A stretch of DNA of 37,779 nt from an archaeon CG10_big_fil_rev_8_21_14_0_10_43_11 (GTDB lineage: Archaea > Nanobdellota > Nanobdellia > PEZQ01), in the NCBI GenBank assembly GCA_002763265.1, contig PEZQ01000008.1, positions 1 to 37,779 of the forward strand, in the 5' to 3' direction. Made by a program: the position numbers and the translations under genes. The notes beneath the pieces were generated by a model. The model searched no databases. It was not told the origin of the DNA and saw nothing but the letters and a program-made list of their open reading frames with translations. Below, one piece after another: positions 2,406 through 24,790 of this stretch (positions within the stretch are counted from its first letter, which is position 1; every line of letters starts with the position of its first letter).

Positions 2406-3503
2406 TTATTCTTGTTGTGACGGGTCATCATTTTCTTTTGAGAACATGCTTTTTTTGAGCACGCTAAAACCAAGACGCCATAATTTTGATTCTTTGAGCA
2501 ATAATTGCACAATGAATTTTGTTGGAAAATCACGGTCGTGTTCTTCTAATATTTTTTTGCTTGATGACTGATTAAAAATCTGGATGAGCTCATCATACTG
2601 GTCTTGTGTCATAGAATTCATGGCCTCACGCATTTTAAGGCTCATCCACAAATCGCGGCCAAGCTTGCTGTTAAATTTTTTAGCATACGAGTCAGGGTTT
2701 TCTGCTAAGTACGAACCGGCAAGCAATCCATAAATGATACCACCATACGTAGTTGCTTTTACTTGCGTTGCTGCATCCCCAATCAGGTACGCACCATCTT
2801 TTGCAAGCACTTGCTTAGGATTATAGAGGGGTACAAGCCCACTTTGGGGTTCAATCACGTCATGCGAGCCAACGAGTTGTTTGAACGCCCCTGCAACGTT
2901 TTTTCCAATCACACCAATGCGGGCAACGTGTTCATCTTCAGGAACAACCCATGCAAATTCGCCAAGACCCATATGAATCTCTGTGATGCCGGGCTCTCCT
3001 TTATAGTGCGCGCGCACCTGCAGTCCTTGAAGGAATTGGCGCTCACCAAACATGCCTGCTGCTTTTGCAACTGGACTGAGCGGACCATCAGCGCCAACAA
3101 GCATGCGTGATTCAAAGCTTCCTTTGTCAGTAATAATCTTAAACGAGTCACCATTTTTTTTGAATCCTTGAAAGGTGTGATTAAGAAGAATTTTTGCGCC
3201 ATTATCTTCTGCTTTTTGTGCAAGGTATTGATCAAAACGCGCGCGGTCCATAACCTTGTTTTCTTTGTCAAGGTCAATGTCAACACTTTTCCCATTTGGT
3301 GCAACAATACGGAATTTCTTGATTGTTGCTACCACAAGCTCGTCAGGAATGTCAATAACGCGCTTAATTGAATCAGTCACAATGCCGGTGCACTGGATGG
3401 GGTAGCCTGCTTTTGAGTTTTTCTCAAAAATGGTCACGTCCTCATCTTTAATGAGGCTTGCGTAATGCGTTCCAGCAGGACCTGCTCCAACAACACCAAT
3501 CAT
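2406..3503 (-). CDS. Geranylgeranyl reductase family FAD-dependent protein
   Basis: This is a 365-aa flavoprotein with the N-terminal dinucleotide motif GAGPAG (residues 6-11), an FEKNSKAGYPIQCTG segment typical of the geranylgeranyl reductase branch, VGADGPLSPVAK, and a second FAD motif LIGDAATQVKATTYGG. Archaeal members hydrogenate isoprenoid chains of archaeol lipids (digeranylgeranylglycerophospholipid reductase) or related prenyl substrates. Whether this one acts on membrane lipids cannot be told from sequence alone. It is convergent with the DsbB-like gene, with 6 nt between stops. Start ATG 3503 is the only start giving the full FAD motif. Confidence 0.88.
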   Translation of the reverse strand: MIGVVGAGPAGTHYASLIKDEDVTIFEKNSKAGYPIQCTGIVTDSIKRVIDIPDELVVATIKKFRIVAPNGKSVDIDLDKENKVMDRARFDQYLAQKAEDNGAKILLNHTFQGFKKNGDSFKIITDKGSFESRMLVGADGPLSPVAKAAGMFGERQFLQGLQVRAHYKGEPGITEIHMGLGEFAWVVPEDEHVARIGVIGKNVAGAFKQLVGSHDVIEPQSGLVPLYNPKQVLAKDGAYLIGDAATQVKATTYGGIIYGLLAGSYLAENPDSYAKKFNSKLGRDLWMSLKMREAMNSMTQDQYDELIQIFNQSSSKKILEEHDRDFPTKFIVQLLLKESKLWRLGFSVLKKSMFSKENDDPSQQE

Positions 3504-3554
3504 AGCTTTAGAGCAGTTGTTTTTGGTTAAAAAAGTTTGGGAACCAAAACAGCG

Positions 3555-5354
3555 TTAAGACCTTAGAGTTTTTCCCAATTTTTTTGCCAACTCCTTTGTT
3601 TGGTCAAACAAACGTTGTATCTCACTAATACCTTCGCTCCAAAACTCGGGCGTGCTAATATCAATGCCAATTTTTGCAAAGGTTTCTTTTGGTGAGGCAA
3701 AAAGCCCTGTGCTTAAGAATTGCTTGACTTGCTCAATGTATTCGGGTTGTTCTCGAACGCGTTTTTGCAGTGCTTTTGAAATAAGCAATCCTGACGCATA
3801 TGAATAATTATAGAAATATCTTCGGATATGACCCCAATACACCCACCAATTCTCACTTCCCTCATCATTTGATACCGCAGGACCCATGTACGCGCTCATG
3901 TGTTTTTGAAAGAGCGCACCAATTTCTTGTACTGAAAGATAGTTCTTTTCACGGTAGGTTTTGTGCAGTTCCAATTCAAACTGGTAGCATGCAACTTGGC
4001 GCATAATACTTGACACATCACTATTGAGCTTTTCCATTAATAATGCGAGACGCGTGGGGTCATCTGCATCTTTGAGTAGTCGTTCAAACACAAAGTCTTC
4101 CATAAACGTGCTTGCACACTCAGCAGTTCCAAGTGACGTGCCAAAATAGAGCGCGTGTTGTTTTTTCTTCATTAACTCATTATTAATTGCGTGACCCATC
4201 TCATGCGCAAGTGTTGTTACGTCTGAGAGTTTTTTTGTAAAATTAAGCAAAACGTAGGTGGGTTGTGTTATTAGTCCATGCGCGCAAAACGCGCCACTTG
4301 TTTTTCCTTTTTTTGGAAACACATCAATCTGGCCGTTTTCAATAAATGATGTGAGGTAGTCGGCAAATTCTTTGTCTAAATCAGAAAACACGTCAGTGAC
4401 AAGTTGTGCTGCTTCTTTAAATGAGTAATTTTTTTCTTCCAATTCAAAAGGAACGTTTCGCTCGTGATACGCAAGTTGTTTTTTTCCAAACAATGCTGCT
4501 TTAAGCGCGTAGTAGTCTTTTGAGAGCGAAAATGCTTTTTTTACTGCTTTGAGCATTGCATCAACCACTTCGCTTTCCATGTCATCAGCAACATGGCGTG
4601 ACTGGTCTGCTCGCGTGTACCCGCGCAATGTGTCATTGACTTTTTTATCTTCAAGAATGGCATTGATTTCTGCTTCAGCAAGTTCTGCATGTTTTGCAAG
4701 AATATCATTAAATGCGCGTGCCGCATCATCTCTAACTTTTTTATTCTGACTGTTTAAAAGTGAAAGAATATCTGAAAATGTTTTGGTTTCTTTTTTTCCT
4801 TTTTCATTGAGGATTTCGCGCTCTTCTTTGCTCAAAAATGAGGAAACCATGCGCACCCACGACTCGTACGCGCTTGCTGACTTTAACGTGAGAATGCGCT
4901 CTTCTTCTTCACTAAGCAAGTATTTTGCTGTTTGAAAGATTCTTTCAAGAACATGACGATATGCTTTGAGTTCAGCTGATTTCAAGAAAAGTTCTTGTGT
5001 TTTTTTGTCAATTTTTGCAAGTGCGTGTTCAAAGAATCGGGTGTCATTAATGAGGTTTTTTGAGTGAGCGTCTGCTGCCCTGAATTTTGCTTTGATGGTT
5101 GTGTCAAGCTGGTCTTGCGTGCTTCTAAGCCAAAAATAGTAGAGTTCATCGGCTTCAACGCCATACCTGCGCGACCATGCTTCGTAATCATCAAGTGCTT
5201 CTTTGAGCACGCTGGGCTTTGTAAGATAGTCAGTTCTGTTCTTCCATTTTTTGATAAACGTGTCAGTTGCACTTTGCCACTTTTTGCGATTCTGCTCAAT
5301 TTTTGGGTCAGAATCTCCTGAGAATAATGGTGAAAAGTCCCATTCAAGTTTCAT
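3555..5354 (-). CDS. pepF: Oligoendopeptidase F-type metallopeptidase (M3B)
   Basis: This is a cytoplasmic zinc peptidase that degrades short peptides. The product from ATG 5354 is 599 aa, close to the PepF norm of about 600. The zinc motif HEMGH (H384-E385-x-x-H388, bases 4191-4205) is preceded by TTLA, and the downstream GTAECASTFMED supplies the third ligand Glu expected for M3 enzymes. The N-terminus KLEWDFSPLF matches the family start (WDLSPLF type), which is why I chose ATG 5354 over GTG 5378. The gene lies 24 nt behind the Nudix gene on the same strand, so the two are probably co-transcribed. Functional link to the Nudix protein is unknown. Confidence 0.95.
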   Translation of the reverse strand: MKLEWDFSPLFSGDSDPKIEQNRKKWQSATDTFIKKWKNRTDYLTKPSVLKEALDDYEAWSRRYGVEADELYYFWLRSTQDQLDTTIKAKFRAADAHSKNLINDTRFFEHALAKIDKKTQELFLKSAELKAYRHVLERIFQTAKYLLSEEEERILTLKSASAYESWVRMVSSFLSKEEREILNEKGKKETKTFSDILSLLNSQNKKVRDDAARAFNDILAKHAELAEAEINAILEDKKVNDTLRGYTRADQSRHVADDMESEVVDAMLKAVKKAFSLSKDYYALKAALFGKKQLAYHERNVPFELEEKNYSFKEAAQLVTDVFSDLDKEFADYLTSFIENGQIDVFPKKGKTSGAFCAHGLITQPTYVLLNFTKKLSDVTTLAHEMGHAINNELMKKKQHALYFGTSLGTAECASTFMEDFVFERLLKDADDPTRLALLMEKLNSDVSSIMRQVACYQFELELHKTYREKNYLSVQEIGALFQKHMSAYMGPAVSNDEGSENWWVYWGHIRRYFYNYSYASGLLISKALQKRVREQPEYIEQVKQFLSTGLFASPKETFAKIGIDISTPEFWSEGISEIQRLFDQTKELAKKLGKTLRS

Positions 5355-7270: not shown

Positions 7271-7504
7271 TTAAGCAATATCTAAGTCCAGGTCATTTAA
7301 CAATTCTGAAACTTCCTGAATGTTTTTACTCACATCTCTAACAACGGTTTTTGCTTCTTGCTCGCTTATAACCACGACTGCACCTGTTGTTGCTGTTTGG
7401 TTCGTGCTTGTTTGATTGTCTGATTCCTTTGTCAGAGAGTCACCAATTTGCGTGCATCCAATGAACAGTGTTGCAAACATGAATGCTATAATATATCGTT
7501 TCAT
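7271..7504 (-). CDS. Small lipoprotein coupled to the giant Cys-rich protein
   Basis: A 77-aa protein with a lipoprotein signal: MKRY, a hydrophobic core, then the lipobox-like FIGC (Cys17). The mature part starts with a Ser/Thr/Asn-rich linker containing N-glycosylation sequons (NQTSTNQTATTG) and ends in a helical acidic segment (residues 47-77). The start codon overlaps the stop of the upstream giant protein gene by 4 nt (ATGA), so the two are translationally coupled and probably work together at the cell surface. No domain is recognised. Confidence 0.8.
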   Translation of the reverse strand: MKRYIIAFMFATLFIGCTQIGDSLTKESDNQTSTNQTATTGAVVVISEQEAKTVVRDVSKNIQEVSELLNDLDLDIA

Positions 7505-10500
7505 GCTAACACCGCCACTAATGGTCCTTCACAATAGGGAAGAATATCAACTTGCGGGTCTTCAATTCCTGAGGAGTAATGAGGGATGCTGCAGGTCATA
7601 TCCTGGTTGTTGTCCGTTACATACATTGAGCACATGCCGTTTTCTAAACCTCTAATTTCTGCTTCAACACCGTCTTCTGGCGTGAATGTTGCTTGCTTAC
7701 AGAGGCGAAACGCTGCGTCAAAACAATCCTCATCAAAACCACAGTCGGCTACGTTTCCTTGTGTTATATCCCGGACTTCTTCTGAGCTACTGAGCATAAT
7801 GTAGAGCACGTTTTTGAGTGTTGATTTTCGCAAGTGACGTATCTTGAGCTTAACATCTTCAATATCCTGCACGCTCAAGCTCTCAATAGTATCGCGAAGG
7901 AAGTTGAGAATATCTTCCACTTCATCTGCGGCAGTAAACAACATTTCAGATGCGCGCTCGAATCGCGCCCCATTTGTATCATTTCGTTCTTGATAGAACG
8001 CTGCGATTGCTTGTATCTTTTCTCCAAGCTCTACGAATCTTATTTTCAAATCTTCAAGTTTGAAAACCATGCCAAGCAGGATTGCTGAATCTGGCACTTC
8101 TTCAAGTTTTTCATGCGCCTCCAAACTAACCATCGCATCACCTTTTGCAACGCATTCTACAAAGGTAACGCATCCTTTAGCATCTTTTTCCACGATTAGC
8201 TCGCCTTTACATTGTGTGTACGCTTCTGCAGGAACACTCTTGCAGTATTGTTCCTTTGCACCACAGGCGAGTATTTCGCATCCATGCGTATTGTAGTCCC
8301 GAACCACCTGCAATCCTTGTGAATTACATTTTGTTTTTATTTCTTGCACAATGTTTGGACTCAACGAGTCAACACCCACACACTTATCAGTCTCTTTTCG
8401 CTCGCACACTACACGTTCACAACCATTCTTCTTCACGTATTTTGGCGAGCCTCCAAATTCTTTGCAGCGCAATACATCCTCATTATTTTGCTCAATAGTT
8501 TGGCATTCTGCTTTGTTCTCCCATAGACGTGCGGTTTTATTCTCATCTTCAAAGCTACATTTTAAGAATTCACACGTATCAGGCCCAATATGATATTCGG
8601 GAAGCCCGCCCTGCTCAATACATTTTTGCTCCCAGCTAGGGTCTCGTGTTGGACATATTCTCTGTTCTTTTTCACACACAATAGTGCTTATGCCCGCGTC
8701 CGCATCAAATAGTTCTTCACAGCCTTGGGGAACTTCTTGCACCAACTTGAATCCTGTCTTTGACGATGACGGGCAGGTGTATTGGGATTCTTGACACCAC
8801 GTACCACACCAATTCGAACCCGCGTTTTTGCAGTCACTTTCTGAAAAACAGTTCCAGGGTTGTGATGCCGTGCAAATCGGACATTCTCCTGCATTACACC
8901 AGCCAGCGTTCACACTGCCACACCAATCGCCGCCCGCGCTGGTACAGTCTGATTTCGTGTAACAGTTCCACACTTTTGACGAAGTGCAGGTTGGACAATT
9001 TTCTTGCTGACACCAACTGTAATCACCTGAACCTGTGCACCACTGTGCATCAACACCTTCACAAGACGTTTGTGAGAAGCAATTCCAGGGGTTATTGTCA
9101 CTGCATTCGGGACAATTTTCTTGCTGACACCAGCCATAGTCCCCTGAGCCTTCACACCATTGTGCATCAACACCTTCACAGTTTGATTGTGATGCGCAAT
9201 TCCAAGGGTTTGCTTGTGAGCATGAATAGTCAGGACAGGTGTATGGTGCTTTGTTACACCATCCCGATGTGGTTGCATTGGTTGATTCAGGATTATTACA
9301 CCACACGCCACTTACTGATTTACAGGTGGTCTCTGTCTGGCAATTCCATGCTTCATTTGAGGAGCATTTGAATGTTGGGCACGTGTCTTTTTGGCACCAT
9401 GCATTTCCACTTTTATCACTGCACCATTTAGCACCAGCAGATTCACAGTTTTCCTTATCTCCACACTTCCATAATGATGACGAAGTGCAGGTTGGACAGG
9501 CATCAGATTGACACCACGTACCACACCAATTCGAACCTGCGCTGGTACACGTGCTTTCTGTTTTACAATTCAAGCTTTCCGTTGCAGAACATGTGTAGGA
9601 TGGACAGGCATCAGATTGACACCAACTAGGACCACCGCCTGAGGATTTGCACCAGTTTTTTCCTTTGTCTTCACATGCAGATTGCGTGTTTATAGGGCAG
9701 TCGTCTGAACACCACCCCGTACTTGAATACACGTCTTCACACCAATCGCCGCCCGCGCTGGTACAGTCTGATTCTGAGTAACAGTTCCATAACCCTGTTG
9801 TGTTACATGTTGGACAATCATACTCTTGACACCAACCATAACTACCTGAGCTTGCACACCAATTTCCTTGAACGCCTTCGCACAGCGATTCAGTATTACA
9901 ATTCCATTTTTCAGTAGCAGTGCAGGTTGGACAGGGTTGGCTTGAACAATACGTGCCACACCAATTCGCGCCAACACCAGTACAATCTGATTCTAAATAA
10001 CAGTTCCACGCTTCGGATGCGCTACAGGAAGGACATTCATACGTCTGGCACCAGCCGTAATCACCTGAGCTTGCACACCAATTAGCCCCACTGGCACTGC
10101 ATGACTCTTTATCATTACAGTTCCACGCTGATGATGCATTACACTCGTATGAAGGACACGCATAACTCTGACACCAGGTGTTTCCATAGGTGTCAGCACA
10201 CCAATTGGCACTTACTTGCGAACATTCTGACTCAGTTTGACAATTCCATGCTTCATTTGTGTTACACGAACTCGTACCCGTTTGATTTGTCTGATTTGTG
10301 GTTGTAGTTTGGTTTGTAGTTGTTGTCTCGTTCGTGCTTGAACAGGAGTAGCCTGCATCATTGCAGTAATTATTACACCACACCCCACCAACACTCGTGC
10401 AATTCGTTTCACTATAACAATAGCTTGTTTGTGAAGCAGAACAGGTATATGTTTGGTTAGTCGTCGTGTTAGTTTGATTTGAGCTTGGGCATACATACCC

Positions 10501-11499
10501 TGAGGAATAACAGTAATTGCTGCACCACACGCCATTAATGCCCGCGCATGCGGATTCAGTGTAGCAATAGCCCGGATACGACGCAGAACAAGTCATGCTT
10601 GTTGTAGTATTTGTGCTACCACAATCAGTTGGGCATGAGCTAGATGTTTCATTACTATCGCAAAGACCATTGCCACAATAGGCTGAAGTGTTCACGCTCG
10701 GACAAGAATAACCAGCGCTGTAACAATAATTACTGCACCACACCCCACCAACACTCGTGCAATTCGTTTCACTATAACAATAGCCCGGATACGACGCAGA
10801 ACACGAAGTGGAAGTTTGATTCGTGCTTGAACAGGTGTAGTTTGATTCGTAGCAGTAATTACTACACCAAATGCCCCCTGCACCACTACATTCTGATTCC
10901 GTGTAGCAGTACCAGCGCTCATTCGCGTTACATGTGTATGTTGGGCATGCGGTATTTTGACACCAGCTTGAAGAACCAGACATACACCAGTTAGCGCCTA
11001 CTGTTTCGCATTCAGACTGTGACGCGCAGTTCCAATAATCAGTGGATGAACAGGTATTAGACGGGCACGCACCTGACTGACACGAACTATAGCCTGCTGA
11101 ATCAGTGCACCAATTTGCCGCACCTATCCCTTCACACTCTTCTTGAGTCTGGCAATTCCAATATCCAGTTGATGAACACATAGTAAATTCCGGACACGAA
11201 TAATAATCACCTGACCACGTAGCATCGCTGCAACAATAACCTGAAGAGTAAACGGTGCCACCGCATTTACAGGAAGCACTTATGGTTATGTTTGTGCCAC
11301 ATTCTGGTGCGCACGCCTCAAGGCTCGCACAGTCTGTGTCATCACAATCAGTTAAGCCATCAGCGTCATCATCAACGCCATTTGAACATTCAGTTTCTGT
11401 TGTTGGAGTGGTTTGATTTTCCTGTGCGTATGAGGCTTGGGTGGGGAACGTAAATAAAAGGGAGAGAACAAGAAGTGCAAACAGTAATTCCCTACCCAT
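7501..11499 (-). CDS. Giant secreted Cys/Trp-repeat surface protein
   Basis: A 1332-aa exported protein. Residues 1-25 form a signal peptide (cleavage near SYA-Q). Residues 38-57 contain CSNGVDDDADGLTDC, a calcium-type Asp-rich loop common in archaeal and bacterial envelope proteins. From about residue 108 to 913 there are about 19 imperfect units of 35-60 aa with the pattern C-x4-5-W-N/Y-C-x2-E-S-x-C-x4-G-x-W-C...W-C-x4-C-P. One unit carries an extra YCGNGLCDSNE-type cysteine module. Asn/Thr-rich linkers with many N-x-T sequons separate units 3-7. Residues 914-1120 hold about four copies of a different module (C-x3-GG-x-P-x5-G-C-E-x3-C). The C-terminus is helical without a membrane anchor. 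TATAAATA about 25 nt upstream supports ATG 11499. Function unknown; likely a disulfide-rich fibre, adhesin or envelope component. Confidence 0.85.
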   Translation of the reverse strand: MGRELLFALLVLSLLFTFPTQASYAQENQTTPTTETECSNGVDDDADGLTDCDDTDCASLEACAPECGTNITISASCKCGGTVYSSGYCCSDATWSGDYYSCPEFTMCSSTGYWNCQTQEECEGIGAANWCTDSAGYSSCQSGACPSNTCSSTDYWNCASQSECETVGANWCMSGSSSWCQNTACPTYTCNANERWYCYTESECSGAGGIWCSNYCYESNYTCSSTNQTSTSCSASYPGYCYSETNCTSVGGVWCSNYCYSAGYSCPSVNTSAYCGNGLCDSNETSSSCPTDCGSTNTTTSMTCSASYPGYCYTESACAGINGVWCSNYCYSSGYVCPSSNQTNTTTNQTYTCSASQTSYCYSETNCTSVGGVWCNNYCNDAGYSCSSTNETTTTNQTTTTNQTNQTGTSSCNTNEAWNCQTESECSQVSANWCADTYGNTWCQSYACPSYECNASSAWNCNDKESCSASGANWCASSGDYGWCQTYECPSCSASEAWNCYLESDCTGVGANWCGTYCSSQPCPTCTATEKWNCNTESLCEGVQGNWCASSGSYGWCQEYDCPTCNTTGLWNCYSESDCTSAGGDWCEDVYSSTGWCSDDCPINTQSACEDKGKNWCKSSGGGPSWCQSDACPSYTCSATESLNCKTESTCTSAGSNWCGTWCQSDACPTCTSSSLWKCGDKENCESAGAKWCSDKSGNAWCQKDTCPTFKCSSNEAWNCQTETTCKSVSGVWCNNPESTNATTSGWCNKAPYTCPDYSCSQANPWNCASQSNCEGVDAQWCEGSGDYGWCQQENCPECSDNNPWNCFSQTSCEGVDAQWCTGSGDYSWCQQENCPTCTSSKVWNCYTKSDCTSAGGDWCGSVNAGWCNAGECPICTASQPWNCFSESDCKNAGSNWCGTWCQESQYTCPSSSKTGFKLVQEVPQGCEELFDADAGISTIVCEKEQRICPTRDPSWEQKCIEQGGLPEYHIGPDTCEFLKCSFEDENKTARLWENKAECQTIEQNNEDVLRCKEFGGSPKYVKKNGCERVVCERKETDKCVGVDSLSPNIVQEIKTKCNSQGLQVVRDYNTHGCEILACGAKEQYCKSVPAEAYTQCKGELIVEKDAKGCVTFVECVAKGDAMVSLEAHEKLEEVPDSAILLGMVFKLEDLKIRFVELGEKIQAIAAFYQERNDTNGARFERASEMLFTAADEVEDILNFLRDTIESLSVQDIEDVKLKIRHLRKSTLKNVLYIMLSSSEEVRDITQGNVADCGFDEDCFDAAFRLCKQATFTPEDGVEAEIRGLENGMCSMYVTDNNQDMTCSIPHYSSGIEDPQVDILPYCEGPLVAVLA

Positions 11500-13617: not shown

Positions 13618-14094
13618 ATGTTATACACATTGGTACGTGTTCTTGACCGTTTTGTGCGCTTCCCAAGCGCGCACGCGCATTGCGATATTCCCTGTGGAAT
13701 CTACGACCCTCACCAGGCACAAGTAGATGCACACACGGTTATTCGCATGATAGACCTTATTAAAGAAGCGAAATCCAGCAACGTGCACAGCCTTGCTCGC
13801 TACACAAGCGTAAAAGAGCAGCATGCAGAATCGTGCAAGCATCAGATTCGAATTCTTTGGGGAGACTACTTTAAAGATGAGCATGTTAAACAATTCCCAA
13901 ACCTGCCTGAACTGGTTTGGCGCGCGCTCAAGCAAGCATCAAAAACCCGTCAAGGAACAGACCGAAAAGATGGTGAAGCTCTTCTTGCAACCGTGCAAGA
14001 GATTAGCGAAATCTTTTGGAAAACAAAAGGAAAAAACCCGAAGCGCGTGAAAGCACCCTACCCTAGTGGCGGAGAGCTCGTACTCCACGACTAA
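13618..14094 (+). CDS. sodN: Nickel superoxide dismutase precursor (SodN)
   Basis: NiSOD converts superoxide to oxygen and hydrogen peroxide. The 158-aa precursor has a 20-residue leader ending SAHA, followed by HCDIPCGIYDP, the nickel hook. After cleavage, His1, Cys2 and Cys6 with the new N-terminus bind nickel; Pro5 and Tyr9 are also conserved. The rest (HQAQVDAHTVIRMIDLI, ESCKHQIRILWGDYFKDEH, a C-terminal amphipathic helix) matches the four-helix NiSOD fold. The leader must be removed by SodX, encoded 12 nt downstream. No twin-arginine or Sec signal is seen, so the enzyme is probably cytoplasmic. Leaderless start from TTATATAA. Confidence 0.95.
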   Translation: MLYTLVRVLDRFVRFPSAHAHCDIPCGIYDPHQAQVDAHTVIRMIDLIKEAKSSNVHSLARYTSVKEQHAESCKHQIRILWGDYFKDEHVKQFPNLPELVWRALKQASKTRQGTDRKDGEALLATVQEISEIFWKTKGKNPKRVKAPYPSGGELVLHD

Positions 14095-16686: not shown

Positions 16687-17437
16687 ATCTACAATAGTAG
16701 AAATTAAAGCATGCTTCTAGACCTCATCCGCGTTAATAGTCAAACCCTCCACATCTACAATAGTAGAAATTAAAGCATGCTTCTAGACTTTCGCTGAGAA
16801 GGTAGTGAGGGAGTGGATCTACAATAGTAGAAATTAAAGCATGCTTCTAGACAAAAGATTGAGGAAGTTGAGGAGAAAGTATCTACAATAGTAGAAATTA
16901 AAGCATGCTTCTAGACTTAAGACGTGGGGCGTTAGTGATTGTAGATCTACAATAGTAGAAATTAAAGCATGCTTCTAGACCGGAATATTTTGAGCGTTGG
17001 GTATTGCATCTACAATAGTAGAAATTAAAGCATGCTTCTAGACTTCAAAAAAGTATCATCCGTGACGTTCTCATCTACAATAGTAGAAATTAAAGCATGC
17101 TTCTAGACACGTTCAGTGACGTCTGGAACGAAGTACGATCTACAATAGTAGAAATTAAAGCATGCTTCTAGACGCGGATAAACCAAAGCCTAACCGCGGT
17201 ATATCTACAATAGTAGAAATTAAAGCATGCTTCTAGACCGATTGCAACACGTGCGGGCGCTCATTCATGCATCTACAATAGTAGAAATTAAAGCATGCTT
17301 CTAGACTACACCAAATGTGCAATGATTACACATGAATCTACAATAGTAGAAATTAAAGCATGCTTCTAGACCTCGCAGTCCAGACGGGCGCGAGAATTTT
17401 AATCTACAATAGTAGAAATTAAAGCATGCTTCTAGAC
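16687..17437 (-). CRISPR. Type V-A CRISPR array, 12 repeats and 11 spacers
   Basis: Twelve identical 36-nt repeats start at 16687, 16753, 16817, 16881, 16945, 17008, 17073, 17138, 17203, 17271, 17336 and 17402. Spacers from left to right are 30, 28, 28, 28, 27, 29, 29, 29, 32, 29 and 30 nt, all different. On the minus strand the repeat begins GTCTA and ends in the Cas12a crRNA handle, with stem TCTAC/GTAGA around loop TATT and final T. Transcription is therefore minus-strand, leading from cas2. The leader-proximal (newest) spacer is 17372-17401 and the oldest is 16723-16752. The repeat also contains the 10-nt palindrome AAGCATGCTT. No tracrRNA is needed for this type, and none was seen. The terminal repeat is not degenerate. 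Confidence 0.99.
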
Positions 17438-17644
17438 AGTGGTGATTTGAATCTTTATAGCATTTGCTTAATCTCCTCTAGCATACATCATTTTAGACGT
17501 TCACCTCTAAAACTCATTTCCAATATAACTGGTTATTTCTATTCTTCTTAAGTCTTTCTTTAACGATGTTAGAGCGGCTAAAGGTAGCGAATTCGTAGAT
17601 ATCAGCGATATTCTCGTATAATATTAGGACTTAGGTTTGCAGAT
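17438..17644 (-). promoter_or_regulatory. CRISPR leader
   Basis: This is the 207-nt AT-rich non-coding region between the cas2 stop and the first repeat, where new spacers would enter. On the minus strand it ends with GCTATAAAGATT (TATA-like, 17453-17460) just before the first repeat, which could start the pre-crRNA. Short palindromes (CGAATTCG near 17590, GATATC near 17598) are possible IHF-independent integration or regulator sites. No ORF of note. Confidence 0.75.
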
Positions 17645-17917
17645 TTAATACATAATCAGGTCAGTTTCTTCATTTTTAGCATAACCAAACCTTAAAATTT
17701 GGTTTTCTGCTGTTATTTTGAATATCAAGACGCTATCTCCCTGGCTAAATCGTTTCTCAAACCGATTTTTAATTTCTTCTTGCACTATATCCAAAATCCT
17801 TTTACTGTTCCTTATTTCATATACTGAGTATTGCAGTCTTCTTCCATAACTTAAAATAAACTTGGAAAACTCAGTTCTTAGATGGTCTTCTTGAATATCA
17901 TATGTTAAAATCATCAT
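17645..17917 (-). CDS. cas2: CRISPR-associated Cas2
   Basis: A 90-aa protein with the Cas2 ferredoxin-like fold signature: ILTYDIQEDHLRTEF (catalytic-type Asp7), then GRRLQYSVYEIRNS, and SVLIFKI. It dimerises and bridges two Cas1 dimers in the spacer-integration complex. Its start overlaps the cas1 stop (ATGA), so translation is coupled. The gene is closest to the array, and the order cas12a-cas4-cas1-cas2-array is that of type V-A loci. Confidence 0.95.
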   Translation of the reverse strand: MMILTYDIQEDHLRTEFSKFILSYGRRLQYSVYEIRNSKRILDIVQEEIKNRFEKRFSQGDSVLIFKITAENQILRFGYAKNEETDLIMY

Positions 17918-18888
17918 GTTTCTGCCTCTATGTTAAACACAGGAAAATTGTCCATTCCTTTTCCTTTTATGAATGATCTGTAATAGGCTTGAATATATAG
18001 AAATATTTTTTCCTTCTGTTGAAGAATCTCTTTTAAAAACAATTGAGAATACTTTTTATTGAAATTTCTCTTTACATAAAACTGTCCGTTCTTGAAATAA
18101 AAGTCGTCTTTATTTATTTGTTTCAGATTAAAGCTTTTTCTTATACGGCGGTCAATGATACACCTAAAAGGCTCTACCAAATCACAGACTAAAGATTTTC
18201 TTTGAAAAAAGAGCTTATGGTAAAATCCGCAATATGTGTCAAAGCCGTAAAGTTCCAGATTTGCTTCTATGAAATTAAACAGATAATAATAGCCTATATC
18301 CAACAGCAAATTAAAAATGTCATCTTTACATCTTGGCTTTCGACCATTAAAGTTTAGATTCTTGAAATATGTTTCAAAAAACAGTTTTGAAGCTGTTCCC
18401 TCAATCCCTAGCAATTCCTGGCTGTTTTGAGCATGGCCAATCTGTTTGAAAAGCCCCTTTATTTTTGATATATTGTTCTTTTCCTTAACGGTTTTGTATC
18501 GCAATGAGTTCATTAAACTGATTTGGTTTTTGACTTTGTTGCTGATTATGTGCTTGGCAATTTCTAGATCATTACTATTGGAATATTGCTTTTTTCTCAA
18601 TAAAAAATTTCCCTTATTATCGGGGATTATAGAAAAATAAGGTTTAAGATTATGCTTGAGAAACACTATGGGAACTGCATATTTCTTTGCATTCTTTATC
18701 AGAACAGAAGTTATCGAGAATTCTCCTAAAATAAAAACCATAAAAATTTTGCTGCAAGGATGTTGAAGAACAATTTTATTGTTTTCATCAGTAAGAATAA
18801 GATTTGAATTTTTAAGCCTCAGTTTTTTAGAGTTATCACTCTCAATGAAAAGCATTTGCTTTGCCATAAAATCGGGTCTGCTTAGCAT
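17914..18888 (-). CDS. cas1: CRISPR-associated Cas1 integrase
   Basis: This is the metal-dependent integrase of spacer acquisition. From ATG 18888 the product is 324 aa. Catalytic residues are visible: Glu163 in LLGIEGTASK, His224 in CGFYHKLFF, and the acidic pair in CDLVEPFRCIID (Asp236/Glu239). I prefer ATG 18888 to 18915 because GGAG sits 9 nt upstream, the N-terminus LSRPDFMAKQMLFIE fits type V-A Cas1 proteins, and overlap with cas4 is avoided (4-nt gap). Operon with cas4 and cas2. Confidence 0.95.
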   Translation of the reverse strand: MLSRPDFMAKQMLFIESDNSKKLRLKNSNLILTDENNKIVLQHPCSKIFMVFILGEFSITSVLIKNAKKYAVPIVFLKHNLKPYFSIIPDNKGNFLLRKKQYSNSNDLEIAKHIISNKVKNQISLMNSLRYKTVKEKNNISKIKGLFKQIGHAQNSQELLGIEGTASKLFFETYFKNLNFNGRKPRCKDDIFNLLLDIGYYYLFNFIEANLELYGFDTYCGFYHKLFFQRKSLVCDLVEPFRCIIDRRIRKSFNLKQINKDDFYFKNGQFYVKRNFNKKYSQLFLKEILQQKEKIFLYIQAYYRSFIKGKGMDNFPVFNIEAET

Positions 18889-18892
18889 GTTT

Positions 18893-19450
18893 TTAATCTC
18901 CTTTATAGTAATCACATAATTCTTTGTAGATGCACATCCCGCATTTGTTGGGGTTTTGGGTAAAATTTTTGTCTTCCAACGAAAAAAGCTTCATTTTTGC
19001 TATAACTTCTTTTAATCTATTCTTTTCATTGTTTCCAGGCAATGCAACATCATGAATTTTGTTATCTGAAAGCGAATGAAACCGTATCTTTTTAACTGCA
19101 TAACCCATCTCTACCAAACAGAAATATTGCGCATACAGTTGCAGGTAATATCCTTCATAAAGTTTTGTTATCTTGTTTTTTCTTTCTGTAAGAATCCTTT
19201 TTTCAACATCAAAAAGATCGATTTTGCCACTTACGCCCAGCTCTTCACTGTATACGTCAATACCTTCAAGAATCACTTTTTTTGTTGAATATTTTTGCGT
19301 GTCAATAGTCTTGTGGGCATTCTTTCCTTTTGTTTGATACGTGGTATGGTAGAGTGTCTCATCAAAAGAAGAATACAAATTGTGAAAATAGATGCTTCTT
19401 GGACAAAATATGAAATCATTTAGGTTTGATATTCTGATGTTTTGCTCCAT
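18893..19450 (-). CDS. cas4: CRISPR-associated Cas4 nuclease
   Basis: A 185-aa RecB-like nuclease that trims prespacers and checks the PAM before integration. The four cluster cysteines are present: C16 (FCPRS), C170, C173 and C179 (CGMCIYKELC), for a 4Fe-4S centre. The RecB nuclease motifs are H46, D78 (GKIDLFD), E89-x-K91 (TERK), and QLYAQYF. GGAGGT before ATG 19450 is a strong Shine-Dalgarno site. It lies 52 nt behind cas12a. Confidence 0.95.
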   Translation of the reverse strand: MEQNIRISNLNDFIFCPRSIYFHNLYSSFDETLYHTTYQTKGKNAHKTIDTQKYSTKKVILEGIDVYSEELGVSGKIDLFDVEKRILTERKNKITKLYEGYYLQLYAQYFCLVEMGYAVKKIRFHSLSDNKIHDVALPGNNEKNRLKEVIAKMKLFSLEDKNFTQNPNKCGMCIYKELCDYYKGD

Positions 19451-19502
19451 TTAATTACCTCCAGAAAACCGCCATTCACTCCGCTTACTTTGTCTAAATT
19501 AG

Positions 19503-22500
19503 TCATTTAATAGGCATCTCGCTAGATTCATTAATGTTAACATCACTCTGTTTCGTATTCTCTTTCTGATTTAATTTTCTTGAAGCGAAGATTGGCAATT
19601 GTTCATTCCATTTCTCCCTATCATATAACCACAAGTCCCACTCTTTATCAGAAATAAAAAGATCCAAATCAGTTGTTTCTTTACTATCATCCCTCTTGGA
19701 TTTTGTTTTTTGCTTCCCATCATTTATCCACTGTTTGATATGCTCATACATAACTATTCCTTTACGGGCAATATTATATGCTCCGTTTGCATCAGCATCT
19801 ATGGGTAAATGTGGTATTTCTTGGCTTTGATATTTACGTGAATCAAAATGTTCTCCTTGTTCATCCCTTATAGGAGAAAGCAAAAAGTTGTCGTCTTGAT
19901 TTTTATTTGTATCTGCACCATAGAATTTATCTTCTTGTTTTTTAGTGATATCTCCTGAATTTCTGATTTGTTGAATCAGATCAATTACAAAACGAAGTGT
20001 TTCCCAAGCAGTGTGCTCATTGACTTTCTTAAGTTCTACTCTTTCTTCAAATTGCTGTCTCAAAGACTTTGAGTTATCAAAATTCTCAAATAATTTGTCT
20101 AATAATTCTTTTACATCAAAAGGTTCGATAATATATTCGTTTTTGTCTTTCCCCCTTTTTGCCCTGTAACGTTCCAACGCTTTACCGCCTTTACCAGACC
20201 ACAATTTCCATTCTTTGCCATTCACATCAGTATATTGAAAGAAATAATCACCACTATAAACGCCAATCTCTGTAAAAGCACTGAGTATTTGTTTTTTAAT
20301 ATCGGCTTCGCTTCCCTTTTTCAGATAAATAGTTTTTCTCCAACCAGTTACAGGATCAGTTACAGAAGTGTAATTGGCACGAGTATACAACATAATGCCA
20401 ACTTGTTTTCTATTTTCAATATCTCTGTAATTAGTCACTGGTGGCACAAGTTGCAGGGCTTTTGACACAGAACCTATTTTGCCCATATCCGTTACATTTT
20501 TATCTACAAGGTAATTCAGCTTTTTAGCCAACGCCAATTCAAACTTTTGATATACTTGTTGCTCGAATTTTTGACGCCTACGTTTAAATCCTGGATTCAA
20601 ATCTTCCAATACAATGAAAGTGGATTTATAATTACCGTCTTTATCTCTCATCTTTTTGATAATCTCATGGATTACCAACGAAATATAGCCGTCTTTCAAG
20701 TTAGATATATTGCCTTTTTGTTGCCAGTTCTCCTGCTTTTTCTTACGTCTATCTGCAGCATTATTTATCTCCTGCAAATAATCTTTATTGTTAATAACAT
20801 CAAAATGGTCCTGTTCAATGATTTCTCCATTTGCATTAACCAACGAATAGTAAATCAAATGCTTCTCACCACGATCAATGCCCAGAAATTGAATATCTTT
20901 TTGAATATCTTTAGTTTGAGTGAAGTTGTCGTTGACAGTTTCTGTAACATTCCTGTTGCCGTATGCCTTAAAATTCAATGTAATTGGGCAATGCAAGAAG
21001 AATTTATTAGTTGTAAATCTTTTATCTTTAACAATGTCATGTTTTAATTTTTTTATAGTAACTCTATTTTCATCAATCTCGTTGTTTTTATCTAAATAAG
21101 CCTTTGCCTCATCACTTAATGCTTCAATTGATTTATTCTTATTGGCAAACAAACGTAATTCATCATGAATTTTGTACGGAATTGTTTTGTTTGTTTCTTT
21201 TTCTCGTCTGTTGAGTACATAATCTTTAGTTGTGTGTGCGGGACTTTTTTTGATTCCTTTGGCAAGATTTCTGAAAAATATTTCAGATTCTCCATTAAGT
21301 TTATAGATCACATTTCTCTTGTTTTCTTCACTAAACAACATTTTCCAATAATAAGTGTGTATGTTATCTTTACCCCTAACAGTTTTTCTTTGAGAGAAAT
21401 CCTTGTTGTAAATTTGAAACAGAAATACTTTCCCTTCATCAATAAATTCCAGTAATTTTTTCCAAGAAGTGTTTTCCTCCTTTATTTGATAACACGATAC
21501 CTCTGTGTCATGATAGAACTCTGCAATGTCTTTGTATTCAGATGTTTTTTTCCAATCAAAATTAAAGTGTTTGTATGAATCGTGTTTTAAAAATCCTTTT
21601 TTAAAATAATCAATTAATTTTCCCAATGATATTTTATATTCTTCTTCGTTCTTTTTTCGGTGTTCTGTTCTGAATTTACCCGTATCATAAATGTCAAGTA
21701 TATCATTAATTGGTAAATTGTATTTTTCCACCGCAGGTGCAAAACTATCTCCCTTTGAACGGATGAATAAACGTGGTGTATTCTTATTATCTGGTTTTTG
21801 AAAATCAAGGATTATCCTTGTTGCGGTTTCACCATTTGGCTGCTTTAGTGTTTTAATATCTTCTTTTGATAAATTGTAATTAATCGCTAAATAATAAAGC
21901 CCATCTTTTTTATATAGAAGTCCTGCCTTTTTGGCATAATCTGGTGGCCATCCACCAAGAAAAGAACTGCTTTCAAAGTTCAGTTTCAGCTTGTTTTTCT
22001 TTGCATCTTCCTGTGGTTTCTTGCTTAGGTAATTTCTCACCAAATCGTACCAATCAAACCAGTTGGAATCATCCGCACGTAGCAAAGCAGAAAGTATATT
22101 GGTCAGTTCAGGGTTAATGCTGTTTCCTTTTACCTTGCTCTCCTTTACTTCAAAATATTTCACAATCCACAGCAACCACTTTGATCTATCCAGCCATTCT
22201 TTTATCTGTAGAATATTGTTTTCATTTTTATAGTCGATTATTTTTAAAGCATCTTCTGATTTCTCGCAAAATTCCTTTGCCAACTTTTGCATATCTGCGC
22301 AAATAAGCTTGATAAGATTTTGGCTTGGTGTAAGCTTCTCATCAATTAAATCTTTATATTCTTCTAAAATATGTTCCCTGAAAAAGTCTTTACTCCAACC
22401 TTGAACAGCATCATGATTCAAAATTTCAAACAACCCCGACAGCTCAACGGCATCGTTTATTTTCAGTTGTTCTTCTCGCTCTTTGTTGTAGGTTGCAACT

Positions 22501-23807
22501 GATTTTAATGTTTCTTTTAACCCTTTGTCTTTTCCTTGTAGATCAGTTTGAATGCGATCTTTTATATCATGCCAGTTTGCTAAATACTTATTAGAAATCT
22601 TATCAACTGCTGCTTTCGACCAATAGGTGCCCTCCCAATCATTGTTTTCTCTTAACCATTCTATGAATGTGTAAATGGTGATTAGGGTATCATCGATTTG
22701 TTCGGCAAAATATTTTTCACCAGCTTTACTTATTTTGCTCAATTTTTCTTTGAGTTCCGTATCATCTTTAATTTGCTCAAACAAACTTTGTTTACCACAT
22801 CCAATCTGTTTAAATAAGGTTTTGAACTGTGACAATTTTTTAAAATCCTTTTCGTCTTTTCTTTCCTGATTATACAAATTTATCAGCAGATTGTAATGTC
22901 CCATGACTCTGTTGTATTCGTCAATTCCTTCTTGAGAAAGATATTTTGGAAACTTATCAAGATTAAACCAGTCTTCGCTTACGGGTTGTGCCTCAATCAG
23001 TTGATTGGTTTTTGCATCTTTTATTTGTATAGTCCCGCGATTATCTTTCAAGTATTGATAAGCTTTTAGATATTCTTCTTTTCGGGAAACAATTGTTTCT
23101 GTGCGGGTATCATTTTTTTTCTTTTTCTGAACCTTTCCGATTAAAAACTGAATGACGTTATCACAAAATTTAGGCAAGTTTTCATGAACTATTCTCGTAG
23201 CTACTGCCGTGCTTGCTTCTTTTTTATATTCATAATAATTAGACCTATTGGTATTATACCCTGAAAAATATCCAAAGAAACCCTCAAATTCTTCGATATG
23301 TGCCCATAATTCTACATTATCTTTATATTGCTCTGACAAATACCCTATGATTTCTGCTTTTGCTGTTGGAACCCCGTTTTTTATTTCAAATAAAGGCTTC
23401 TCTTCTTCTTCTTTCTTCTTAGTTATTTTGGTTATCTTGTATGTCTTAACAGTTTTTTCAAAAGTCTTGCCTATTTGTTCCCGTAATTTCTTTTCAAAAC
23501 CATCCAACTTTTTTTCTTTGCCTTTTTTGTATTCTTCAAAATATTCTGAAAAATCAATCTGTTTCGCTTCGTCTGAAGTCAAACTCTTATTAATTATATC
23601 TTCATGTATCTTGTCTAAGACAGGTTTTAGAGCATCATAAGCTGCTTTAATCAGTCTATCCTTCTCAATAATTTTCGTGAGTAATTCAGTTGCATCTTCA
23701 GGTGATAATACCACTCCATCCTTCCCAATTGGTCTTAACTCAAACCTCAAAGTTTTCGATAAGCTGTACAAATTTGTAAATTTATCCCATTTGCCTTTTT
23801 TGTTCAT
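19503..23807 (-). CDS. cas12a: Cas12a (Cpf1) effector nuclease, type V-A, long form
   Basis: Cas12a processes its own pre-crRNA and cuts T-rich-PAM DNA with one RuvC site. The product is 1434 aa, longer than FnCas12a (1300) and AsCas12a (1307). It starts with the classic WED-I/REC1 entry FTNLYSLSKTLRFELRPIGK. The RuvC triad is complete: D978 (GIDRGEKH), E1068 (VLEDLNPGFK) and D1339 (DADANGAYN). The Nuc-domain arginine R1282 (QQIRNSG) and SPIRDEQGEHFDSR are present. LYLFQIYNKDF-type and HTYYWKMLFSEEN motifs mark the WED/PI region. Two additions stand out: about 45 extra residues between FFRNLA and KDKRFT, the crRNA-processing region, and a long charged C-terminal tail. The N-terminal REC part is also Lys-rich. 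It overlaps the leader ORF by 4 nt and heads the operon. AT-rich relative to flanks. Confidence 0.97.
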   Translation of the reverse strand: MNKKGKWDKFTNLYSLSKTLRFELRPIGKDGVVLSPEDATELLTKIIEKDRLIKAAYDALKPVLDKIHEDIINKSLTSDEAKQIDFSEYFEEYKKGKEKKLDGFEKKLREQIGKTFEKTVKTYKITKITKKKEEEEKPLFEIKNGVPTAKAEIIGYLSEQYKDNVELWAHIEEFEGFFGYFSGYNTNRSNYYEYKKEASTAVATRIVHENLPKFCDNVIQFLIGKVQKKKKNDTRTETIVSRKEEYLKAYQYLKDNRGTIQIKDAKTNQLIEAQPVSEDWFNLDKFPKYLSQEGIDEYNRVMGHYNLLINLYNQERKDEKDFKKLSQFKTLFKQIGCGKQSLFEQIKDDTELKEKLSKISKAGEKYFAEQIDDTLITIYTFIEWLRENNDWEGTYWSKAAVDKISNKYLANWHDIKDRIQTDLQGKDKGLKETLKSVATYNKEREEQLKINDAVELSGLFEILNHDAVQGWSKDFFREHILEEYKDLIDEKLTPSQNLIKLICADMQKLAKEFCEKSEDALKIIDYKNENNILQIKEWLDRSKWLLWIVKYFEVKESKVKGNSINPELTNILSALLRADDSNWFDWYDLVRNYLSKKPQEDAKKNKLKLNFESSSFLGGWPPDYAKKAGLLYKKDGLYYLAINYNLSKEDIKTLKQPNGETATRIILDFQKPDNKNTPRLFIRSKGDSFAPAVEKYNLPINDILDIYDTGKFRTEHRKKNEEEYKISLGKLIDYFKKGFLKHDSYKHFNFDWKKTSEYKDIAEFYHDTEVSCYQIKEENTSWKKLLEFIDEGKVFLFQIYNKDFSQRKTVRGKDNIHTYYWKMLFSEENKRNVIYKLNGESEIFFRNLAKGIKKSPAHTTKDYVLNRREKETNKTIPYKIHDELRLFANKNKSIEALSDEAKAYLDKNNEIDENRVTIKKLKHDIVKDKRFTTNKFFLHCPITLNFKAYGNRNVTETVNDNFTQTKDIQKDIQFLGIDRGEKHLIYYSLVNANGEIIEQDHFDVINNKDYLQEINNAADRRKKKQENWQQKGNISNLKDGYISLVIHEIIKKMRDKDGNYKSTFIVLEDLNPGFKRRRQKFEQQVYQKFELALAKKLNYLVDKNVTDMGKIGSVSKALQLVPPVTNYRDIENRKQVGIMLYTRANYTSVTDPVTGWRKTIYLKKGSEADIKKQILSAFTEIGVYSGDYFFQYTDVNGKEWKLWSGKGGKALERYRAKRGKDKNEYIIEPFDVKELLDKLFENFDNSKSLRQQFEERVELKKVNEHTAWETLRFVIDLIQQIRNSGDITKKQEDKFYGADTNKNQDDNFLLSPIRDEQGEHFDSRKYQSQEIPHLPIDADANGAYNIARKGIVMYEHIKQWINDGKQKTKSKRDDSKETTDLDLFISDKEWDLWLYDREKWNEQLPIFASRKLNQKENTKQSDVNINESSEMPIK

Positions 23808-23863
23808 GCTCTAACCGCCACAGGAACTCTTATATTTCCAGAAAAAATGGTTTTTTCAATCAT
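23804..23863 (-). CDS. 19-aa leader ORF overlapping the cas12a start
   Basis: ATG 23863 opens a 19-codon frame (MIEKTIFSGNIRVP...VRA) whose TGA overlaps the cas12a ATG (ATGA). A CATATAGA box at about 23883-23890 lies about 24 nt upstream of this ATG, so the transcript may begin at the leader ORF itself. cas12a has only a weak SD-like GGCGGT before its ATG, so translation of cas12a could depend on coupling to this ORF. It may instead be a chance frame. No homologue is known to me. Confidence 0.45.
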   Translation of the reverse strand: MIEKTIFSGNIRVPVAVRA

Positions 23864-23932
23864 GTTATGCCTCGCTCATTTTCTATATGAATAGTACATT
23901 AAAAGGATTAAATCTTTTTCGGAGGTGAAATC

Positions 23933-24072
23933 ATGCCCAAAATAGAGCTTGAAATCAAAACCCAACTTGAAAAGGACATTAAAGAAGCTTTTGAGGTGAA
24001 CTCAAGGCTTCTAGCTACAATTCAAAGGCTGAGTGGTTGAGAGAGCAAATACGGAATGTCCTTACAAGATAG
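23933..24072 (+). pseudogene. Ribbon-helix-helix (antitoxin/regulator-like) gene with -1 nt frameshift
   Basis: GGAGGTG 5 nt before ATG 23933 marks a real start. Frame 1 (to 24040, 35 codons) reads PKIELEIKTQLEKDIKEAF, a beta strand plus helix. A different frame from about 24022 reads SKAEWLREQIRNVLTR up to TAG at 24070-24072, a perfect second RHH helix. Adding one base near ACAATTCAA (about 24018-24026) would give a 46-aa MetJ/Arc/CopG-type protein. Such proteins are DNA-binding dimers that act as antitoxins or repressors. It is divergent from cas12a, so it may have controlled the cas promoter. No toxin partner is visible. A sequencing indel cannot be excluded. Confidence 0.65.
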
Positions 24073-24073
24073 C

Positions 24074-24640
24074 TTATTGTTTTTTTGCTGGGAAACACCC
24101 TTCAAGACAGTAGACAGTTAATTTGCCTACACAATTGTCTCTTTCACAGATAGATGCCATATTACATGAAGTGCACAATTTACTGGTCAATTCACTTTTA
24201 TCTAACTTAAGAGTTCCTTGTTTATCGTGCAATTCATGCAAGAGCTTGAGGTATTTGCCTTCTGCAATTCTTGGCACCCCATCCTTGTTTTTTAGTCCTA
24301 TCCATTCGTATAGCCTTTTACCGCCTTTTGATGAATTGCATTTTTTACAGATTTTTATTGCATTGTCAGCAATATCTGGCCCACCGCAAGACCTGGGCAA
24401 AATATGCTCAACTGTTAGATCTTCCTTTGAACCACAATAAATACATTTATTTGGTTTTTCATGTTCCTTAACCCACTCTCTAATGGCAGTTGACCAAGTT
24501 ATTTTGCCGTCTCTCAAAGCAATAAAACGGTCCATTTGGAAGGCTCTTTGATTTATTCCAAAACCTGCAGATTTGGAAATAAGTTTAGCATACTGCCAGA
24601 AAATCTCATCCTTTATTGTCTTCACAATTGCTGGTGGCAT
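24074..24640 (-). CDS. HNH endonuclease with extra Cys cluster
   Basis: A 188-aa protein. It has a conventional HNH core: CIYCGS, VEHILPRSCGG, then NAIKICKKCNSSKGGK, with the structural CxxC pairs and the catalytic His of VEH. The C-terminal part adds CTSCNMASICERDNC...YCLEGC, a second metal-binding cluster. An N-terminal helical region (residues 1-65) is unassigned. AAGGAGGT before ATG 24640 is a strong SD site. It is convergent with the RHH remnant and lies in the cas AT-rich block. It resembles stand-alone HNH nucleases of restriction or mobile contexts rather than Cas9. Whether it works with Cas12a is unknown. Confidence 0.85.
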   Translation of the reverse strand: MPPAIVKTIKDEIFWQYAKLISKSAGFGINQRAFQMDRFIALRDGKITWSTAIREWVKEHEKPNKCIYCGSKEDLTVEHILPRSCGGPDIADNAIKICKKCNSSKGGKRLYEWIGLKNKDGVPRIAEGKYLKLLHELHDKQGTLKLDKSELTSKLCTSCNMASICERDNCVGKLTVYCLEGCFPAKKQ

Positions 24641-24706
24641 AATTAACCTCCTTTTCGTCTATAAAGCCTACTTCCTCCATAGACCTTAATTCTTAGTGTG
24701 CATAAG

Positions 24707-24790
24707 CGCAGGGAGAGGGATTCGAACCCTCGCCTCCCGAAGGAGACTGGCTCTCCAAGCCAGCGCCGTAGACCACTTGGCTATCCCTGC
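24707..24790 (-). tRNA. tRNA-Ser (anticodon GGA)
   Basis: A minus-strand class II tRNA. Acceptor GCAGGGA pairs with TCCCTGC, discriminator G. Anticodon stem CTGGC/GCCAG encloses TTGGAGA, anticodon GGA. The long variable arm TCTCCTTCGGGAGGC and T-loop GGTTCGAATCC are present. CCA is not encoded. It reads UCC and UCU. It lies at the right edge of the Cas12a block, a typical place for island insertion. Confidence 0.97.

Follow-up and report, generated by a model that had tools for sequence, protein, structure and literature searches.

The locus described here raises the question of how a bacterial-type immune system built around Cas12a came to lie in the chromosome of an archaeon. The window, that is the whole stretch of DNA analysed (37,779 nucleotides), belongs to an 82-kb contig of a draft assembly of 1.006 Mb, with 11 contigs and a completeness of 99.6%, and the host chromosome is that of a DPANN archaeon (Nanobdellati/Woesearchaeota-group). 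The answer that we consider highly probable is that this type V-A locus has a composite history, in which the effector would have been replaced in situ on a conserved cassette of adaptation genes, leader and repeat.

The locus, its host and its borders

A complete type V-A locus occupies the minus strand of the window from 16687 to 23807. It begins with cas12a (19503..23807), which encodes a protein of 1434 aa placed by phylogeny in clade I of the family (PADLOC M57 group), and continues with cas4 (18893..19450, 185 aa; TIGR04328, 227 bits for a cut-off of 70), cas1 (17914..18915, 333 aa, type V-A subtype; TIGR04329, 386 bits for a cut-off of 300) and cas2 (17645..17917, 90 aa; PF09827 and TIGR01573, the latter at 39.5 for a cut-off of 24.5). 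On the same strand follow the leader (17438..17644), which fills the interval between cas2 and the array and contains the conserved block ATGAGTTTTAGAGGT...TCTAAAATGA, and the CRISPR array itself (16687..17437). The original prediction of a complete set on one strand thus holds, each gene being confirmed by curated models, and the models matched by Cas1 and Cas4 are specific to type V. This cas1 gene encodes the sole Cas1 of its genome.

The flanks are archaeal, as had been predicted from the sequence: a Dph2-like gene lies on the left, uS10_euk_arch, EF-1 alpha and aEF-2 are found on the right, and on both sides the best matches of the flanking genes are archaeal or eukaryotic models. The G+C content is 0.31-0.33 in the island versus 0.42-0.43 in the flanks, which agrees with the island having been acquired from a source of low G+C. 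The upstream border of the island is marked by a tRNA-Ser(GGA) gene (24706..24790, minus strand), whose position beside the HerA-like and uS10 genes is kept in G602, a genome of the same family with the gene order EF-1 alpha, uS10, HerA-like gene, homologue of a 187-aa protein and tRNA-Ser. Because this synteny extends as far as the tRNA-Ser, the right flank can be regarded as native up to the island. The G602 contig stops 139 bases past the tRNA-Ser, short of any empty site, and no Cas1 was found in this genome, which is 83% complete.

The tRNA-Ser gene was considered as an attachment site and rejected, since the tRNA end has no direct or inverted repeat at the opposite border of the island. 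The island of another DPANN locus, G362, also starts beside a tRNA gene (tRNA-Gly, L036 7778-7848), and no attachment repeat was found at either of these two tRNA-adjoining islands. Elsewhere in the window, we observed a sodN gene for a nickel superoxide dismutase (13618-14094), here in a DPANN genome, and a gene (7501-11499) for a protein of 1332 aa without Pfam match, which displays only a weak acidic double-disulfide repeat and is possibly a surface protein.

The interval first proposed for the system ran from 16687 to 24640, and its last part does not appear to belong there. Indeed, positions 24074..24640 (minus strand) correspond to an HNH endonuclease gene (188 aa; PF01844/PF14279), which is probably a neighbour and not a component of the system because no relative of it was found near any other Cas12a locus retrieved; a role as an accessory was rejected on the same ground. 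In 18 related genomes, this gene gave just a weak partial match. The 19-aa leader ORF that had been counted in the system (MIEKTIFSGNIRVPVAVRA, 23804..23863, minus strand) does exist and overlaps the cas12a start by ATGA. Its putative role as a conserved regulator was given up, as the ORF was not seen upstream of the related cas12a genes examined, and it is at most a candidate member of the system. Between cas12a and the HNH gene, a plus-strand ORF of 36 codons (23933-24040) with a good ribosome-binding site is perhaps a remnant.

Effector family and the type V-A loci of DPANN archaea

The effector is assigned to Cas12a by TIGR04330 (673.6 bits for a cut-off of 300) and by PADLOC Cas12a_M57 (1349 bits). 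As predicted, the RuvC triad (D978, E1068 and D1339) and the Nuc arginine (R1282) are intact, with D/E/D and Arg at the expected alignment columns; conserved columns were taken from the retrieved sequences, and the Francisella numbering served only as a lead. The columns tentatively indexed on a C-terminal piece of the Francisella protein as D917/E1006/D1255/R1218 read D/E/D/R in the window. The residues of the processing site are H858, R867 and K927. The His and the second Lys of this site are thus kept, while an Arg takes the place of the first Lys, which most other sequences have; the clade I relatives L007-L012 and L016 share this Arg. The possibility that the effector is a Cas12a2, in which a zinc ribbon replaces Nuc and a large insertion occurs, was rejected given the presence of the Nuc Arg and the full-length match to Cas12a.

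The closest full-length Cas12a proteins are 53-57% identical and bacterial, from Bacteroidota SZAS-18 (L007), Leptospiraceae UBA2033 (L008) and Flavobacteriales MAG_49 (L009). No Cas12a homologue was found in viral contigs or in phages, and the plasmid search returned just one distant Butyrivibrio Cas12a. With the type V-A systems of Francisella novicida, Lachnospiraceae and Acidaminococcus, the locus shares the effector family, the order cas12a-cas4-cas1-cas2-array, a 36-nt repeat with the UCUAC/GUAGA handle and the RuvC and Nuc residues, while it departs from the usual type V-A by its archaeal DPANN host, its clade I (M57 group) Cas12a with an Arg for Lys and its DPANN-specific adaptation clade.

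The original prediction had also held that few archaeal Cas12a proteins are known, and in this group they are indeed rare, as a full Cas12a match above the cut-off was obtained in 3 of the 371 genomes sampled from the phylum. A Cas1 search in this phylum sample and in two orders led to six V-A-type DPANN loci, namely the window (G000), G362 (KA32, JAHYJW01, L036), G039 (Woesearchaeota CG10 37_12, PCYA01), G504, G307 and a remnant, G213. The NCBI title of JAHYJW01 refers to Patescibacteria, a label that looks wrong and that we rejected, since the contig bears archaeal L15e, aRF1 and RadB.

Two of these loci have unusual effector regions. In G307 (L119, contig C35, 1-4503), the adaptation clade of the window (Cas1 67%) is found with a Bro-N gene and a Cas12a2-type effector that has a zinc ribbon. 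The 513-aa C-terminal part of this effector matches the Cas12a2 structure 8d49 (3e-120), and the protein is assigned to the Cas12a2 group and no finer because related clades, Cas12a3 and Cas12a4, exist (PMC12851939). In G213 (L093, contig C49, 400-963), about 100 residues from the N-terminus of a clade I Cas12a are fused in frame with residues 9-90 of Cas2. The fusion adjoins an array of 3 repeats where the contig ends, and it is what a deletion has left of a V-A locus. In G039, a Bro-N-like gene lies between cas12a and cas4. Two DPANN loci with unlike effectors (L121 1246-2103 and L119 2129-2959) have a Bro-N domain gene at this place, the assignment being made by PADLOC PDC-S13 in L119 and by eye in L121.

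Array and predicted immune function

The array comprises 12 repeats of 36 nt (GTCTAGAAGCATGCTTTAATTTCTACTATTGTAGAT) and 11 spacers of 27-32 nt, with its leader side at 17437. The repeats are identical in all 12 copies and, in keeping with the stem-loop handle described in the original prediction, their 3' 19 nt fold as a UCUAC-loop-GUAGA hairpin typed as the Cas12a handle (z -5.4). The same repeat is found letter for letter (36/36) in G362 (27 copies) and G039 (9 copies), and the leader can be aligned with those of G362, G039 and G504. The window, G362 and G039 have no spacer in common, and neither a second array nor a spacer self-match was found in the host genome. In the array of L094 (minus strand, offsets 2844-4578), we observed that the spacer pairs 1/2 and 3/18, numbered in minus-strand order, are near-identical and unequal, as if taken from related variants of one invader.

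Judging from their family, Cas4-Cas1-Cas2 would capture DNA fragments with a T-rich PAM and add them to the array on its leader side. The intact residues of Cas12a suggest that pre-crRNA cleavage upstream of the UCUAC...GUAGA hairpin would be carried out by the effector itself, and that the Cas12a-crRNA complex would cleave matching dsDNA via a single RuvC site. Immune function and dsDNA targeting are in this way predicted from the sequence, and the intact genes and perfect repeats are what would make the system functional and recently active, as was initially proposed.

It could be argued that immunisation has been lost in a decaying or orphaned locus, and the protospacer searches agree with this to some extent. 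In IMG/VR, 18-nt PAM-proximal seeds of 7 spacers gave 0-7 matches each and no true target, the matches being treated as due to chance because all of them fail past 18-19 nt, and phage records yielded no match to any of the 11 spacers. Furthermore, the deletion remnant in G213 indicates that such loci do decay in this group. However, every reading frame and catalytic residue is intact in the window, no repeat deviates from the others and the leader is conserved, and we regard decay as unlikely.

Histories of the effector and of the adaptation cassette

The adaptation proteins of the window are close to those of G362 (Cas4 87%, Cas1 87% and Cas2 93% identical) and of G039 (80%, 83% and 92%, respectively), while the effectors of these two loci belong to clade II and share no more than about 29-31% identity with the window Cas12a in local alignments, or 35-37% in global ones. 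At the DNA level, homology between the window and G362 spans cas4-cas1-cas2 and most of the leader (80-84%) and ends at 19451, at the cas4 start codon; within cas12a, the alignment is limited to two short conserved motifs.

Phylogenies of Cas12a and Cas1, which had been proposed as a check of the original prediction, were built with one genome per species and with a Cas12a sample drawn by two peptide patterns, and they reveal different histories, bacterial-type for the effector and a DPANN clade for Cas1. Indeed, the five DPANN loci that bear a Cas1 form one clade (100/99, and 100/100 without long rows) in which the window and G362 are sisters (99/92). In the Cas12a tree, the window protein lies among Bacteroidota, Spirochaetota and related bacterial proteins, G362 and G039 fall within a large Bacteroidota group, and G504 forms a separate deep branch. 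Forcing the window, G362 and G039 into one Cas12a clade is rejected by the AU test (p 1.3e-50), and so is forcing the window Cas1 with the Cas1 proteins of L007-L009 (p 8.5e-5).

Uptake of the entire V-A locus as a unit from a bacterium, without any effector swap, would account for the bacterial origin of the closest Cas12a relatives and for the low G+C content throughout the island. This scenario is nevertheless very improbable, as the loci with the closest Cas12a (L007, L008 and L009) have different repeats and adaptation genes that belong to other, local clades of bacteria, and their Cas1 proteins are just 38-44% identical to that of the window, against 83-87% for the DPANN Cas1 proteins associated with the same repeat. 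Equally hard to believe is an assembly chimera, with a cas12a of bacterial origin wrongly joined to the adaptation module and array of a DPANN archaeon, since, although the assembly is a draft in 11 contigs, two misjoins would be needed (the other side of cas12a leads to the HNH gene and the tRNA-Ser in a neighbourhood syntenic with G602), the border at 19451 has no common sequence that could cause a join, cas12a and cas4-cas1-cas2 are equally low in G+C, and G213 independently joins the N-terminus of a clade I Cas12a to a DPANN-type Cas2.

Replacement of the effector in situ is the reading that we retain. Incongruent trees, an identical repeat and a sharp homology border are its observed part, from which we infer the recombination event itself and its direction. 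The adaptation genes, leader and repeat belong to a clade specific to DPANN archaea, and this cassette has passed horizontally from one DPANN lineage to another: the host EF-1 alpha of the window genome is only 53% identical to that of G362 and 60% to that of G039, whereas the adaptation proteins reach 80-93%. The effector, for its part, is a Cas12a from a separate clade that is otherwise bacterial. The exchange of its gene would have been bounded by the upstream flank of cas12a on one side and by the cas4 start on the other, with the cassette and the repeat being retained, and the 52 nt between the cas12a stop and the cas4 start (19451..19502, minus strand) are the putative 3' recombination border. 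Since the repeat is unchanged, an array of the old format would be readable by the new effector. When the effector change is mapped on the Cas1 subtree, the window branch is its cheapest place by parsimony. By contrast, this adaptation clade or its sister is paired with a clade I Cas12a in the G213 remnant and in the bacterium L016, so that clade I may be the older partner of the cassette.

A second, independent case of effector exchange is provided by a pair of Flavobacteriales, L009 (clade I) and L053 (clade II), whose Cas1 and Cas2 proteins are 89% and 95% identical versus 36% for Cas12a. Their repeats differ at 1 of 36 positions and DNA homology again begins just 5' of cas4. Over the Cas1 tree, the effector-clade label changes 7-8 times.

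Archaeal hosts of Cas12a include Methanomassiliicoccales (Methanoplasma termitum and Methanomethylophilus alvus), which resemble the window in being archaeal and lie outside DPANN. In archaea, class 2 systems are described as rare, with II-D named in DPANN and a few others scattered (PMC12669027), and neither an earlier report of V-A or Cas12a2 in DPANN nor one of Cas12a2 in archaea was found in the literature searched, which covers a minority of the subscription journals. It is known in general that effector modules can be exchanged in situ while the adjacent adaptation genes and array stay in place (PMC6452270). While this review stresses exchange in type III, the window represents the exchange of a single class 2 gene with an identical repeat in DPANN. 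The 2025 classification gauges such swaps by identities of 90% for Cas1 and 50% for the effector (PMC12669027), a threshold that the window/G362 and L009/L053 pairs narrowly miss. Effector shuffling being already known in general, the window adds an intact archaeal V-A case.

A broader reading, to which we give even chances, is that the DPANN cassette spreads between lineages and takes interchangeable type V effectors, namely Cas12a proteins of two deep clades and a nuclease of the Cas12a2 type. If so, an archaeal cell could give up the cutting of DNA for an abortive infection triggered by RNA, and, wherever the repeat stays the same, the stored spacers would survive the change of effector. 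As nucleases, both the clade I Cas12a and the Cas12a2-type protein of DPANN have, in addition, been little sampled. The window and G362 constitute a natural pair, with the same repeat, near-identical adaptation genes and deeply different Cas12a proteins, with which one can test whether unrelated effectors can use a single array and what limits their exchange, and which bears on how an ultra-small archaeon gained bacterial-type immunity.
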